A stretch of DNA of 64,000 bases from Geoglobus ahangari (GTDB taxonomy: Archaea; Halobacteriota; Archaeoglobi; Archaeoglobales; Archaeoglobaceae): positions 1,364,001 through 1,428,000 of the forward strand of contig NZ_CP011267.1 in assembly GCF_001006045.1 (NCBI RefSeq), in the 5' to 3' direction. Positions 23,995-27,440 of this stretch are shown here, piece by piece. How positions within the stretch are numbered: position 1 is the stretch's first letter; every line of letters starts with the position of its first letter. The notes under the pieces are model-generated. The model did no database searches and had not been told where the DNA came from. It saw only the letters and a list, made by a program, of their open reading frames with translations. The position numbers and the translations under genes were made by a program.

Positions 23995-25293
23995 ATGGCT
24001 CTTGACGCTCTCAAGGATGTTGTGCGAAAAATCGCAAGGTCATCCTCAATTGACAAGCACCTCGTTGATGAGGTTGTTAAGGATATTCAGAGGGCCCTGA
24101 TCAGGGCTGATGTTAATGTAAAGCAGGTTAAGGAGATAACCGACGCCATCAAGAAGAGGGCACTGAGCGATGAGCCCCTGAAGAGCCTGAATCCGAGGGA
24201 GCACATCATCAAGATCGTTTACGAGGAGCTTCTGAAGGGGGTTGGAGAGGGCCTTGAGATCCCCCTCGAGAAGGCCAGAATAATGCTCGTCGGTCTGCAG
24301 GGGAGCGGTAAGACGACAACAACGGCAAAGCTCGCCAAGTACTTCAAGGACAGGGGAATGAAGACCGCCGTAATAGCGGCAGACACCTGGAGGCCCGCTG
24401 CCTATGACCAGCTCAAGCAGCTTGCAGAAAGCATCGGTGTTGGCTTTTACGGCGAGAAGGGGGAGAAGGACGCGGTAAAGATCGTCAAAAAAGGGCTTGA
24501 GGAGCTCAAGGACTACGACATGATAATAATCGACACCGCAGGAAGGCACGCGCTCGAGGACGAGCTGATAAAGGAGATGGTCGAGATCGAGAAGGTCGCG
24601 AAGCCGGACTACAAGTTTCTGGTGCTTGACGCTGCAATAGGCCAGCTCGCGTCAAAGCAGGCGCAGGCGTTTCATGATGCGATAGGCATAGACGGGATAA
24701 TCATCACAAAGTTCGACGGAACCGCCAAGGGTGGAGGCGCTCTATCCGCGGCAAGGCAGATTCAGATACCCATAGCATTCATAGGCTCTGGAGAGAGGGT
24801 TGATGATCTGGATCGCTTCGATCCTGCAGGTTTCATCTCGAGGCTCCTCGGGATGGGAGACATAAAGGCGCTGCTGGAGAAGATAGAGCGGATAACTCAG
24901 GAGGAAGAGCTCGATCCGGAGAAATTCCTCAAGGGTGAGTTCACGCTGAAGGATGTCTACAAGCAGATCGAGGCCATGAACAAGATGGGGCCGATAAGGA
25001 AGATATTCGAGATGCTCCCCTTGGGCATGTCTGTGAAGGTTGACGACGATGCTCTGGAGATGACTCAGGAGAAGATGAAGAGGTTCAGGGTGATAATGGA
25101 CTCGATGACTGAAGAGGAGCTGCTAAACCCGAAGATCATAGACGGCTCGAGGATAAAGAGGATAGCAATCGGCAGCGGAACATCTCCGCAGGAGGTCAAG
25201 GAGCTGCTGAAGTACTACAACACCATGAAGAGCCTGATGAAGAGGATGAAGAAGGGCAGGCTGCCGATGAAGGGGCTGAAGATGGGGTTCTGA
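23995..25293 (+). CDS. srp54: Signal recognition particle 54 kDa protein
   Basis: 432 residues. It binds signal sequences and 7S RNA and delivers ribosomes to FtsY at the membrane. N domain residues 1-90; G domain with P-loop GLQGSGKTTTTAKLA, DTAGRH, and TKFDGTAKGGGAL; M domain from about residue 295, rich in Met (EMTQEKMKRFRVIMDSMTEEE, MKSLMKRMKK). The end is short and basic. No other SRP gene lies adjacent. Confidence 0.97.
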   Translation: MALDALKDVVRKIARSSSIDKHLVDEVVKDIQRALIRADVNVKQVKEITDAIKKRALSDEPLKSLNPREHIIKIVYEELLKGVGEGLEIPLEKARIMLVGLQGSGKTTTTAKLAKYFKDRGMKTAVIAADTWRPAAYDQLKQLAESIGVGFYGEKGEKDAVKIVKKGLEELKDYDMIIIDTAGRHALEDELIKEMVEIEKVAKPDYKFLVLDAAIGQLASKQAQAFHDAIGIDGIIITKFDGTAKGGGALSAARQIQIPIAFIGSGERVDDLDRFDPAGFISRLLGMGDIKALLEKIERITQEEELDPEKFLKGEFTLKDVYKQIEAMNKMGPIRKIFEMLPLGMSVKVDDDALEMTQEKMKRFRVIMDSMTEEELLNPKIIDGSRIKRIAIGSGTSPQEVKELLKYYNTMKSLMKRMKKGRLPMKGLKMGF

Positions 25294-25359
25294 CGTCTTG
25301 TCACCATCTTTTTTCTGGGTTGGAAATATTTAAGTATTAATTAAATGCTACTTAATTAT

Positions 25360-25659
25360 ATGGGTACAATTACGATATCTCTGAACGATGAAATTGAGAG
25401 GAAGCTGAGAGAGCATGCAAGGAATGGTGGTAAAGGAGCGCTGTCAAAAGTCATAGAGCAAGCTCTCAGACTATACTTCTCAAAAATTGAAGAACGTAAA
25501 ACAGTTTTCAGAGCTTTTAAGGGAGATGAGCAGGTTGCAGAGGCAGAAAATCTGGAAGAGCTGGCAGAAATCCTGAAAGCAAAGAAGATAGATCCGAGAG
25601 AAGTAACCATTCTGTCCTCAAAGCCGGTAAAGCCCGTGGTGAGGAGAGGATGGAGATAG
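25360..25659 (+). CDS. Ribbon-helix-helix protein, probable antitoxin or regulator
   Basis: 99 residues from ATG 25360 (GTITISLNDEIERKLREHAR, the usual RHH strand and helix). An upstream ATG at 25345 is in frame, but the TATA-like TATTTAAGTATTA about 30 bases before 25360 favours the later one. The second part (LSKVIEQALRLYF) completes the RHH; a charged C-terminal tail follows. It overlaps the aspartic protease-like gene by ten bases. RHH proteins commonly act as antitoxins or autorepressors, so a partner role is inferred. Confidence 0.7.
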   Translation: MGTITISLNDEIERKLREHARNGGKGALSKVIEQALRLYFSKIEERKTVFRAFKGDEQVAEAENLEELAEILKAKKIDPREVTILSSKPVKPVVRRGWR

Positions 25660-26036
25660 TCGATGGCACACCGCTGATAGAGATTCGCATAGAAAACCCC
25701 CTGCTTTCTACGTCATTCCCAGAAGATGGCAGCGTTCTTGCACTGATTGATACTGGCTTCGAGGGATTCGCAATCGTTCCGGAGGAGGTGTTCAGAAATG
25801 CCCGTTTCAGCGAACTCAAGCTCATCGAGCGAAATCTGTTAATGCCGGACAAGCGACTCATAAAGTCTGTTGGAGCATTTGGCAGGATAATTGTGACTTC
25901 CCTCAACACTTACAGGGATGGGTTTATCGAAACGTCGGAAAATGTTGAGGAAGTGGTTTTGGGGGCCGAATTTCTCAGAGGGTTCAGGATAACTCTCGAT
26001 TACTGTGCAGCTTCGGTTTCCATCGACCAGTGCTAA
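25650..26036 (+). CDS. Clan AA aspartic protease, AF_0612-like
   Basis: 128 residues, ATG 25650 preceded by GGTGAGGAGAGG. The motif VLALIDTGFEGFAIVPEEVF is the retropepsin-type active site (DTGF variant) of the small archaeal/bacterial family typified by A. fulgidus AF_0612. The later EEVVLGAEFLRGFRITLDY is the second conserved block. With one active-site Asp the enzyme would work as a dimer. It is encoded as the second gene of a pair with an RHH protein, an arrangement resembling toxin-antitoxin modules; protease activity and target are not demonstrated. Confidence 0.78.
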   Translation: MEIVDGTPLIEIRIENPLLSTSFPEDGSVLALIDTGFEGFAIVPEEVFRNARFSELKLIERNLLMPDKRLIKSVGAFGRIIVTSLNTYRDGFIETSENVEEVVLGAEFLRGFRITLDYCAASVSIDQC

Positions 26037-26081: not shown

Positions 26082-26717
26082 ATGAGAATTGCAGGAATTG
26101 ACGAGGCTGGAAAGGGCCCGGTTATTGGCCCACTTGTGGTTTGCGGTGTTGCGTGTGATGAGGGGCTGCTGAAAAAGCTTTCTGAGCTTGGAGTCAGGGA
26201 TTCGAAGAAGCTCACACCTAAGAGAAGGAAGGAGATTGCTGAAAAGCTGAAGGAACTGCTCGACTGGGAGACTATAGTGATTCAGCCGGCAGAGCTCGAC
26301 AGAATGATGGAGAAGAAGACGATAAACGAGATTCTGAAGGAGGCATGCGTCAGAATAATTTCGAAGCTCAACCCGGACGTGGCTTTCGTGGACAGCTTCG
26401 ACGTGAAGCCCGAGAGGCTTGCGAGAGAGCTCGAGCAGATGACGGGATGCAAGATCGTTGCGAAGCACTGTGGCGAGGAGGAGCCTGTTGTTGCCGCGGC
26501 ATCGATCATGGCCAAGTGCCTCAGAGATGAGATGGTTGAAAGGCTGAAGGAGGAGCACGGCGATTTTGGAAGTGGGTACGCTTCGGACGAGAGAACGAGG
26601 AGGTGGCTGGAGGAGAGGCTGAAAGACGGTGAGGTTCCGGACATAGTCCGGAGAAAGTGGAAGACTGTTGACAGGATGATGAAGGGTTTGAAGCAGAGGA
26701 GCCTGTTCGAGTTCTGA
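26082..26717 (+). CDS. rnhB: Ribonuclease HII
   Basis: 211 residues, normal for the archaeal enzyme that removes RNA from RNA-DNA hybrids and misincorporated ribonucleotides. Catalytic acidic residues are in GIDEAGKGPVIGPLVV at the start (DE), in VAFVDSFDV, and in the C-terminal FGSGYASDERTR segment; VRDSKKLTPKRR is also characteristic. The predicted Mg-dependent site is complete. Convergent with vapC, three bases between stops. Confidence 0.95.
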   Translation: MRIAGIDEAGKGPVIGPLVVCGVACDEGLLKKLSELGVRDSKKLTPKRRKEIAEKLKELLDWETIVIQPAELDRMMEKKTINEILKEACVRIISKLNPDVAFVDSFDVKPERLARELEQMTGCKIVAKHCGEEEPVVAAASIMAKCLRDEMVERLKEEHGDFGSGYASDERTRRWLEERLKDGEVPDIVRRKWKTVDRMMKGLKQRSLFEF

Positions 26718-26720
26718 TTG

Positions 26721-27131
26721 TTATCTATCGAGCACCGTGACCTTTATACCCACTTCCTTCAGCTTCTCAAAGTCCCTGTCGAATGTGAGCACCTCGCAGT
26801 CTGGATCGCTGCAGGCTATGAGAATGTCTATGTCCGGAACGTCTATGCCCTTTAACATGAGCGTCGCCCTAACCTCGGCTGCTCTCTCAACAACTTTCTC
26901 ATCAACCGGCACTTTCGTCAGCGCCTTCAGCATCTCACCTATTTTAATGAACTCCTTCGCGTCTCCGTGCTTCTTCCAAACAAACTTCGCACCAACCATG
27001 AGCTCGTAGACAGTTATTGCGCTCACCAGCAGGTCTTCGCAGGCATTTTTCCGCTCCTCAAGCGCTCTGATTGCCTTCTTGTTTCTCTTTTTGAGCTCTA
27101 TTAGAAATGAGGTATCAAGCAGAAGCTTCAA
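26721..27131 (-). CDS. vapC: PIN-domain toxin VapC
   Basis: 136 residues. PIN-domain RNase with acidic residues in LLLDTSFLIELKK (first Asp), AITVYELMVGA (Glu), GIDVPDIDILIAC (Asp) and VLTFDRDFEKLKEVG. VapC toxins cut tRNA or rRNA to stop growth. Its start overlaps the vapB stop by ATGA, and vapB carries a perfect palindrome over its promoter, so this is an intact autoregulated toxin-antitoxin pair. Confidence 0.92.
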   Translation of the reverse strand: MKLLLDTSFLIELKKRNKKAIRALEERKNACEDLLVSAITVYELMVGAKFVWKKHGDAKEFIKIGEMLKALTKVPVDEKVVERAAEVRATLMLKGIDVPDIDILIACSDPDCEVLTFDRDFEKLKEVGIKVTVLDR

Positions 27132-27340
27132 AGTCTCACCCTGAAGCTCTTTCTGATCTCTCTGGATACTTTCTCCAGCTCTTCCTCGTATCCCGCCTCC
27201 TCCGAAGCTCTGATGAGCAGATCTACCCTCTTTTCCACGTTTCTTGATATCAGCTCGTCTATGATTGCGCTGAAGCTCTTCTTTCCCTTAAGTCTGAGAA
27301 GCTTCTCGTAAACATCATCCGATATTGTTATTGTTTTCAT
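27128..27340 (-). CDS. vapB: Antitoxin VapB (UPF0330/DUF217 type)
   Basis: 70 residues from ATG 27340; a longer frame begins upstream of the promoter and is rejected. MKTITISDDVYEKLLRLKG followed by SFSAIIDELISRN is the standard DNA-binding part of this archaeal antitoxin family. The C-terminal half (EEELEKVSREIRKSFRVRL) would wrap VapC. It overlaps vapC by four bases. TATA (about 27363-27370) is some 25 bases upstream, so the message is probably leaderless. Confidence 0.85.
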   Translation of the reverse strand: MKTITISDDVYEKLLRLKGKKSFSAIIDELISRNVEKRVDLLIRASEEAGYEEELEKVSREIRKSFRVRL

Positions 27341-27341
27341 A

Positions 27342-27362
27342 TTTCGTGTGTTGTACACGAAA
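27342..27362. promoter_or_regulatory. Palindromic operator candidate of vapBC
   Basis: TTTCGTGT-GTTGT-ACACGAAA is a perfect 8-base inverted repeat with a 5-base spacer, lying between the probable TATA box and the vapB start codon. Its position over the initiation region is what one expects for autorepression by VapB/VapC. Confidence 0.6.
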
Positions 27363-27440
27363 ATATTTAAGCTGTTCTGCTGGCAGATAGGTTCGAAATG
27401 CATTCGACAACATTTATAACTCTCCTACCAAAAATTTCCC

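Follow-up and report, generated by a model that had tools for sequence, protein, structure and literature searches.

The window, meaning the whole stretch of 64,000 nucleotides analyzed here, lies within a complete archaeal genome of 1,770,093 bp and contains two small overlapping genes on the + strand. They sit between what we take to be srp54 (23995–25293) and rnhB (26082–26717). The first gene (25360–25659) encodes a partner protein of 99 aa with a ribbon-helix-helix (RHH) N-half and a DUF5678-like C-half, recognized from its open reading frame, the RHH_1 and RHH_6 profiles, a predicted model and profile comparison. The second (25650–26036) encodes a DTGF-type, clan-AA retropepsin-like aspartic protease of 128 aa, recognized from TIGR03698, a predicted model and a structural match. 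As stated in a preliminary description of this DNA, the genes overlap by ten bases: both frames are found, with nucleotides 25650–25659 in common.

Gene starts, promoter and predicted protein folds

The RHH gene has a second in-frame ATG at 25345, but the 24 aligned intact relatives favor the ATG at 25360 as the start. A TATA-like box, TTTAAGTA, lies at 25329–25336 (+), or −31 to −24 of this start codon, and a similar AT-rich box is seen ahead of most of the 26 start sites compared. The promoter-like box precedes the first gene only. Its position and recurrence are consistent with a leaderless promoter, as the preliminary description had proposed for the two genes together. A scan for sigma-70-type promoters and terminators, which does not cover archaeal promoters, found none. 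As a candidate RHH operator, we considered an 11-nt inverted repeat (25326–25336 and 25349–25359, 91% complementary). It is not significant, as 89 of 1000 shuffles of a 40-nt stretch score equally high, and it is missing from most relatives. The protease ATG is preceded by a Shine-Dalgarno-like GAGGAG (25641–25646, +) inside the RHH gene, a putative site called from the letters alone.

The predicted model of the partner has a mean pLDDT of 75.2, indicating moderate confidence. Its first 46 residues align with the RHH domains of PutA, NikR and ParD2 at Z 5–6.5 (for PutA 2gpe, Z 6.5 over 45 residues at 2.0 Å; for ParD2 7r5a, Z 5.2 over 47 residues at 2.2 Å), which places the RHH half at about residues 1–45 (25360–25494). 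Against Pfam RHH_1 the protein scores 19.7 bits, just below the cut-off of 20.5; RHH_6 is matched by 12 of 14 members of the partner family (best E 2.1e-7), and a profile of the RHH half finds 2k6l in the PDB at E 2.5e-6. Together, the model and the profiles point to a strand-helix-helix RHH fold for the N-half. The C-half (about residues 50–87, 25507–25620) is modeled as strand-strand-helix-strand plus a short tail. We looked for a known fold here, and the best structural matches (deaminases, topoisomerases) fall below Z 4, too weak to be adopted. The window partner has no match to DUF5678 (PF18929) at E ≤ 1 and does not reach the Pfam gathering score; three of its 14 relatives match weakly, the best at E 0.11. 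The C-terminal tail (residues 88–99, 25621–25656), defined from the alignment and the model, has pLDDT below 50 and ends in R-x-G-aromatic-R in most relatives. Overall, the linker and tail are variable and poorly ordered in the model.

Retroviruses are the most familiar source of retropepsins. The window protease scores 76.6 bits against the NCBIfam model TIGR03698 (clan_AA_DTGF), over the cut-off of 57.35. It has no match in Pfam at E ≤ 1, but weak matches to gag-asp_proteas are seen for 10 of 15 relatives (best E 5.7e-4). The catalytic motif D34-T35-G36 (25749–25757) and 8 further columns are invariant in all 26 aligned proteases, as is G105 of the V-L-G stretch at residues 103–105 (25956–25964), which is presumably the hydrophobic-hydrophobic-Gly motif of the retropepsin fold. 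A search of the PDB by sequence returned nothing for this protein, and its profile returned a single weak, unrelated match. The model, built from 26 sequences, has a mean pLDDT of 92.8. Its best structural match is Rickettsia 5c9f (Z 12.7, 112 residues, 2.3 Å); HIV-1 protease 2rkg (Z 11.6, 98 residues, 2.6 Å) and Ddi1 (Foldseek E 4.2e-4) are also matched. The predicted fold is that of clan AA, that is, retropepsin-like. A copy 55% identical occurs in another archaeal genome, presumably that of A. fulgidus, which makes the label "AF_0612-type" given earlier to the protease a plausible one.

Two possible contexts for the window protease were considered and set aside. Its one weak match in PADLOC (PDLC01052, "protease", E 1.3e-4, 20.3 bits) is read as general fold similarity, not as membership of a known defense gene family. 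Nor was the window pair taken to stem from a plasmid or phage, as the protease has no match in collections of plasmids, phages or viral contigs.

Pairing, joint inheritance and transfer

Loci were found by searches with the protease only, and then scanned with profiles of both proteins. TIGR03698 was run on 59 genomes of the class, and 392 genomes of the phylum were searched with its alignment; further searches covered the genome collection and 29 genomes around G396. Four DTGA-type matches (L017–L020) were dropped from the class search, nine repeat loci and the cyanobacterial L060 from the genome-collection search, and L130 (the same as L054) and six distant matches from the search around G396. 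There are 59 protease matches, 43 of them strong (E < 1e-30) and 16 weak. The preliminary description would have been refuted by a lack of conserved pairing, and the pairing is conserved: all 43 strong matches have an RHH gene immediately before the protease gene and in the same orientation. These represent 33 loci without repeats and 32 distinct pairs by sequence, L055 and L131, which are identical in sequence and flanks, being counted once. Conversely, a partner profile run against 383 genomes of the phylum gives 14 near-full-length matches, all of them partners of these pairs; the shorter matches include an RHH half in G015, a fragment cut by a contig end in G012 and, in G031, a match in two pieces. 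The pairing of RHH gene and protease is thereby confirmed as more than chance.

Thirty of the 32 pairs are intact. In the other two (L013, which equals L052, and L051), an intact protease stands beside a frame-broken RHH gene; both come from metagenome bins, and assembly error is possible. Separately, the RHH half in G015 (L153) belongs to the partner family and has neither C-half nor protease; the gene after it reads to us as an IS607-type resolvase, and the locus is perhaps a decayed pair.

Both genes are under purifying selection, with dN/dS of 0.05–0.36 for the protease and 0.06–0.23 for the partner in ten chosen pairs of relatives, with one dS value saturated. Distances among partners correlate with those among proteases (0.881 over 24 pairs, the two with a broken RHH frame being left out), a value reached by 0 of 2000 permutations. 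This correlation speaks for joint inheritance and is no proof of interaction, since it is expected for any tightly linked genes.

The distribution is patchy. Pairs occur in 15 of 59 genomes of the class and in one of seven genomes of the window's genus, and G396 carries two. To judge from record titles, the 32 distinct pairs come from Archaeoglobi, Thermoproteota, Nitrososphaeria, Brockarchaeota, Jordarchaeia and others, although mis-sorting is possible for some bins. A conserved chromosomal place was considered and rejected, as it is mostly only among close relatives that the pairs have related flanking genes. In most relatives having both srp54 and rnhB on the locus, these two are near neighbors. 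Three congeners (G025, G026 and G027; loci L085, L086 and L087) carry other genes in the gap between them, which makes this variable gap an insertion hot spot in the window's genus. Read by eye, the gap contents are a membrane protein in two of the three congeners and a hemerythrin-like protein in one. Just past rnhB in the window lies a VapBC pair (26721–27403, −), whose products match the PIN toxin family PF01850 at E 2.4e-15 and VAPB_antitox at E 1.2e-15; this region of the window thus gathers small two-gene modules.

Direct evidence of movement comes from G005, a genome of the same genus as G001. Its pair and that of G020, a genome of another genus, share 92.8% identity over 764 nt, and the match runs from about 40 nt before the RHH start to about 15 nt past the protease stop. 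Between these genomes dS is 0.106 for the protease and 0.292 for the RHH gene, and rnhB and srp54 are saturated at synonymous sites. The next large gene beside the G005 pair is 96% identical to that of the sister genome G003 and 65% to that of G020, which shows that the G005 contig is correctly placed. In G003, neither protease nor partner searches found a pair; its DNA matches the flanks of the G005 pair on either side but lacks some 0.9 kb between them, and hence presents an empty site (insert at L049 ~1625–2540, against G003 L235 1728–1741). The insertion junction is AT-rich (AATTTTTT), and its length is insufficient to identify a target duplication. The insert ends on the right with a segment of some 60 nt (L049 ~2439–2500) that has 12 copies in G020 and is present in six further genomes besides G005; this segment thus resembles a piece of a repeated element, probably a transposable element. 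We conclude that the RHH-protease pair moves horizontally as a unit.

RHH halves, DUF5678 and other small partners

Outside the partner family, the closest matches of the RHH half in the phylum are short RHH proteins. A PIN-type gene follows the RHH gene in 11 of 13 such loci (L154–L166) and in five of five loci from other archaea (L122–L126); all eight downstream proteins that were scanned (from L154–L166 and L124–L126) score over the Pfam cut-off for PIN. The DNA-binding kind found in the partner is therefore also used by antitoxins of PIN toxins.

The weak protease matches, 16 in all, mostly lack a partner of this RHH type. In each of 15 loci inspected (L081, which has no DTG, being left out), a small gene on the same strand nevertheless ends near the protease start. 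We compared three alignments of partners: the RHH type (A4), a set of 15 cyanobacterial and four archaeal partners (A5), and ten partners of weakly matching proteases (A6). In A6, eight of ten members match DUF5678 at E ≤ 0.1, and one, L137, is over the cut-off with 28.6 bits, RHH_1 being over its cut-off in the same protein. By hhalign, the relationship of A4 to A6 extends over both halves (probability 96.2%, pairwise E 2e-9), and that of A5 to A6 over the C-half (92.1%, E 6e-7). A direct link between A4 and A5 was rejected at a probability of 0.4%; only the two-step chain through A6 holds. DUF5678 is matched by four of the 19 A5 rows, all four archaeal, and by none of the cyanobacterial members. 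The cyanobacterial partners are accordingly linked less firmly to DUF5678. For the window partner, it is the chain of profiles from A4 through A6 to DUF5678, rather than a Pfam cut-off, that suggests a DUF5678-like C-half. The preliminary description missed this DUF5678-like C-half and the modular build of the protein, in which RHH seems to be one N-terminal addition among several.

In cyanobacteria, TIGR03698 has matches in 18 of 59 genomes, seven over the cut-off, with up to 11 per genome. We inspected 29 of 30 loci, leaving out L194. A small partner stands about 90 nt before the DTG codons in 16 of 17 proteases of the DTG[FY] kind, L172 being the exception, and is absent in 11 of 11 of the DTG[AS] kind, two of which have unrelated frames there. 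Archaeal DTGA proteases (L017–L019) likewise have no small partner (three of three). In these samples, then, the small partner goes with the DTG[FY] kind. One cyanobacterial contig (G449:C1, ~1949465–1951208; L177, L189) has three DTGF protease genes in a row at a spacing of about 730 nt, and each of the two protease loci inspected has its own partner gene. Another cyanobacterial relative, L060, matches ten plasmid records. Both of the plasmids inspected are typed conjugative and carry a partner-protease pair with a 4-nt overlap, as well as RelE/ParE-family genes within a few genes of it.

DUF5678 itself occurs in 41 of 383 genomes of the phylum, with up to nine matches in one genome (G174). 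A clan-AA protease sequence, in some cases truncated, lies directly downstream in 24 of 30 loci (L199–L228), 23 being identified by the pattern D[ST]G and L205 by eye; four of the remaining loci read as protease fragments and two have nothing. Of seven downstream proteins that were scanned, six have matches to Pfam aspartyl-protease families at E ≤ 0.01. Most of the proteases are of the DSGA kind, often with a 4-nt gene overlap, and many of their DUF5678 partners are about 70–90 aa long with no evident DNA-binding part. From the 24 of 30 loci and the six Pfam-confirmed proteins, it appears that clan-AA proteases regularly have DUF5678 as their partner, with RHH as one addition. In the open-licence literature, we found DUF5678 mentioned in an unrelated context only and no description of the partner-protease pairing.

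Possible modes of action and known systems

The layout of the pair is that of a type II toxin-antitoxin system: two small co-directional genes, adjacent or overlapping, with the partner first. Toxin-antitoxin-like genetics are supported further by the PIN-antitoxin-related RHH half, the patchiness, the transfer as a unit and the relatives on cyanobacterial plasmids. The reading we favor, tentatively and a little short of an even chance, is that of a mobile two-gene module, consisting of a dedicated partner and a retropepsin-like protease, which works much like a type II toxin-antitoxin system. In such a module, the partner would be translated before the protease. Through its DUF5678-like C-half and the conserved tail at its C-terminus, it would bind and restrain the protease, and its RHH N-half would repress the common promoter. 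Loss or degradation of the partner would free the protease, probably a homodimer like other retropepsins, to cut cellular proteins or a specific target. Dimerization, binding, inhibition, autorepression and any toxicity or benefit are what we infer here. The toxin-antitoxin proposal of the preliminary description is thus supported in part, as regards the genetics, with the protease as a putative toxin. The RHH frame is broken in 2 of the 32 pairs. These two, each with an intact protease, weigh most against a strict toxin role, and a strict poison-antidote role is somewhat disfavored by them. Also counting against the favored reading are the lack of plasmid, phage or viral matches for the window protease, the non-significance of the inverted repeat and the missing DUF5678 match of the window partner. 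Moreover, autorepression by the partner cannot be general, since many DUF5678 partners have no evident DNA-binding part.

It is also possible, if fairly unlikely, that the protease is regulatory and no toxin is involved. The partner would then be an autorepressor that is cleaved by the protease, in a proteolytic switch like ImmR-ImmA. Such a switch would suit a transcription unit that joins an RHH repressor half to a protease, and a partner whose linker and tail are variable and poorly ordered in the model. There is precedent in the available text of PMC2701414, where COG2856 Zn proteases go with Xre regulators and inactivation of ImmR depends on ImmA; these pairs too are mobile, combine a DNA-binding regulator with a protease and are placed among toxin-antitoxin-like systems. 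The protease class and the regulator fold differ, however: ImmR-ImmA consists, in the same text, of a HEXXH Zn metalloprotease and an Xre HTH protein, whereas the window encodes an aspartic protease with an RHH/DUF5678-like partner, and we do not assign the pair to the ImmR-ImmA type. In addition, it is the DUF5678-like part that recurs among related partners, many of which have no evident DNA-binding half, so that repressor cleavage cannot be the common role.

Alternatively, the partner could be an activator, adaptor or chaperone that helps the protease to fold, dimerize or find substrates, in regulated proteolysis useful to the host. We consider this unlikely. Fixed one-to-one pairing and a partner translated first would also fit a folding or targeting partner, and retention of the protease frame without an intact partner in two pairs would fit a non-toxic enzyme. 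According to the available text of PMC11957791, the retropepsin-like protease RimB works with its genomic partner RimK, and the bacterial A2 peptidases so far characterized involve other protein factors. On the other side, selfish or stress modules would more typically show such an RHH half, patchiness and joint transfer than would a host system of proteolysis, a consideration that is not decisive. RHH autoregulators being common, and the promoter-like box standing before the first gene only, the pair might in principle be no more than co-transcribed, with an autoregulator controlling an accessory housekeeping protease that it does not touch; this is improbable, as distant relatives change or lose the N-terminal half yet keep a small partner, which autoregulation alone does not explain.

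To return to the toxin-antitoxin-like reading, a broader form of it may be considered. Here the pairs would make up a new class, in archaea and bacteria, in which a retropepsin-like effector is directly blocked by a DUF5678-like antidote; DNA-binding halves such as RHH would add autoregulation, and DUF5678 as a whole would be the dedicated partner family of prokaryotic clan-AA proteases. This proposal is more doubtful than not, and we offer it as a possibility.

Among known systems, archaeal VapBC resembles the window pair in its small overlapping genes and in an RHH half of the same kind. It differs in its second gene, which encodes a PIN nuclease rather than a retropepsin-like protease, and in its antitoxin tail, whose place is taken here by a DUF5678-like half. 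HicAB has as its toxin the RNA-acting HicA, unlike the protease of the window pair. The constant domain of the HicAB partner is likewise thought, in the available text of PMC2701414, not to bind DNA, with an RHH or Xre fusion in some members only. That survey of toxin-antitoxin systems deals with RHH antitoxins and with pairs of Zn protease and Xre protein; its main text does not contain "aspartyl", "aspartic", "retropepsin" or COG5550. The window protease belongs with the single-domain prokaryotic clan AA peptidases (TIGR03698; COG5550/COG3577 in PMC2642776), which the available text of that paper presents as ORFs of about 120 residues, found also in A. fulgidus, about which little is known. 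The available text mentions no partner gene or operon for them, and "operon" and "toxin" occur 0 times in the main text of PMC2642776. Rickettsia APRc, RimB and other bacterial retropepsin-like proteases share the fold, the Rickettsia structure 5c9f being the best structural match, and an RHH or DUF5678 partner is not described for them in the available text of PMC4140852, PMC12239564 and PMC11957791.

Finally, the fixed, mobile partner provides a direct handle on the function of archaeal single-domain retropepsins, and the role suggested here for DUF5678 would be the first proposed for this family. We know of no aspartic protease that acts as the toxin of a toxin-antitoxin pair. Should the protease prove toxic and the partner protective, an aspartic protease would be the basis of a toxin-antitoxin pair. 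With the partner instead as a substrate or adaptor, the pair would offer a simple model of regulated proteolysis in archaea.
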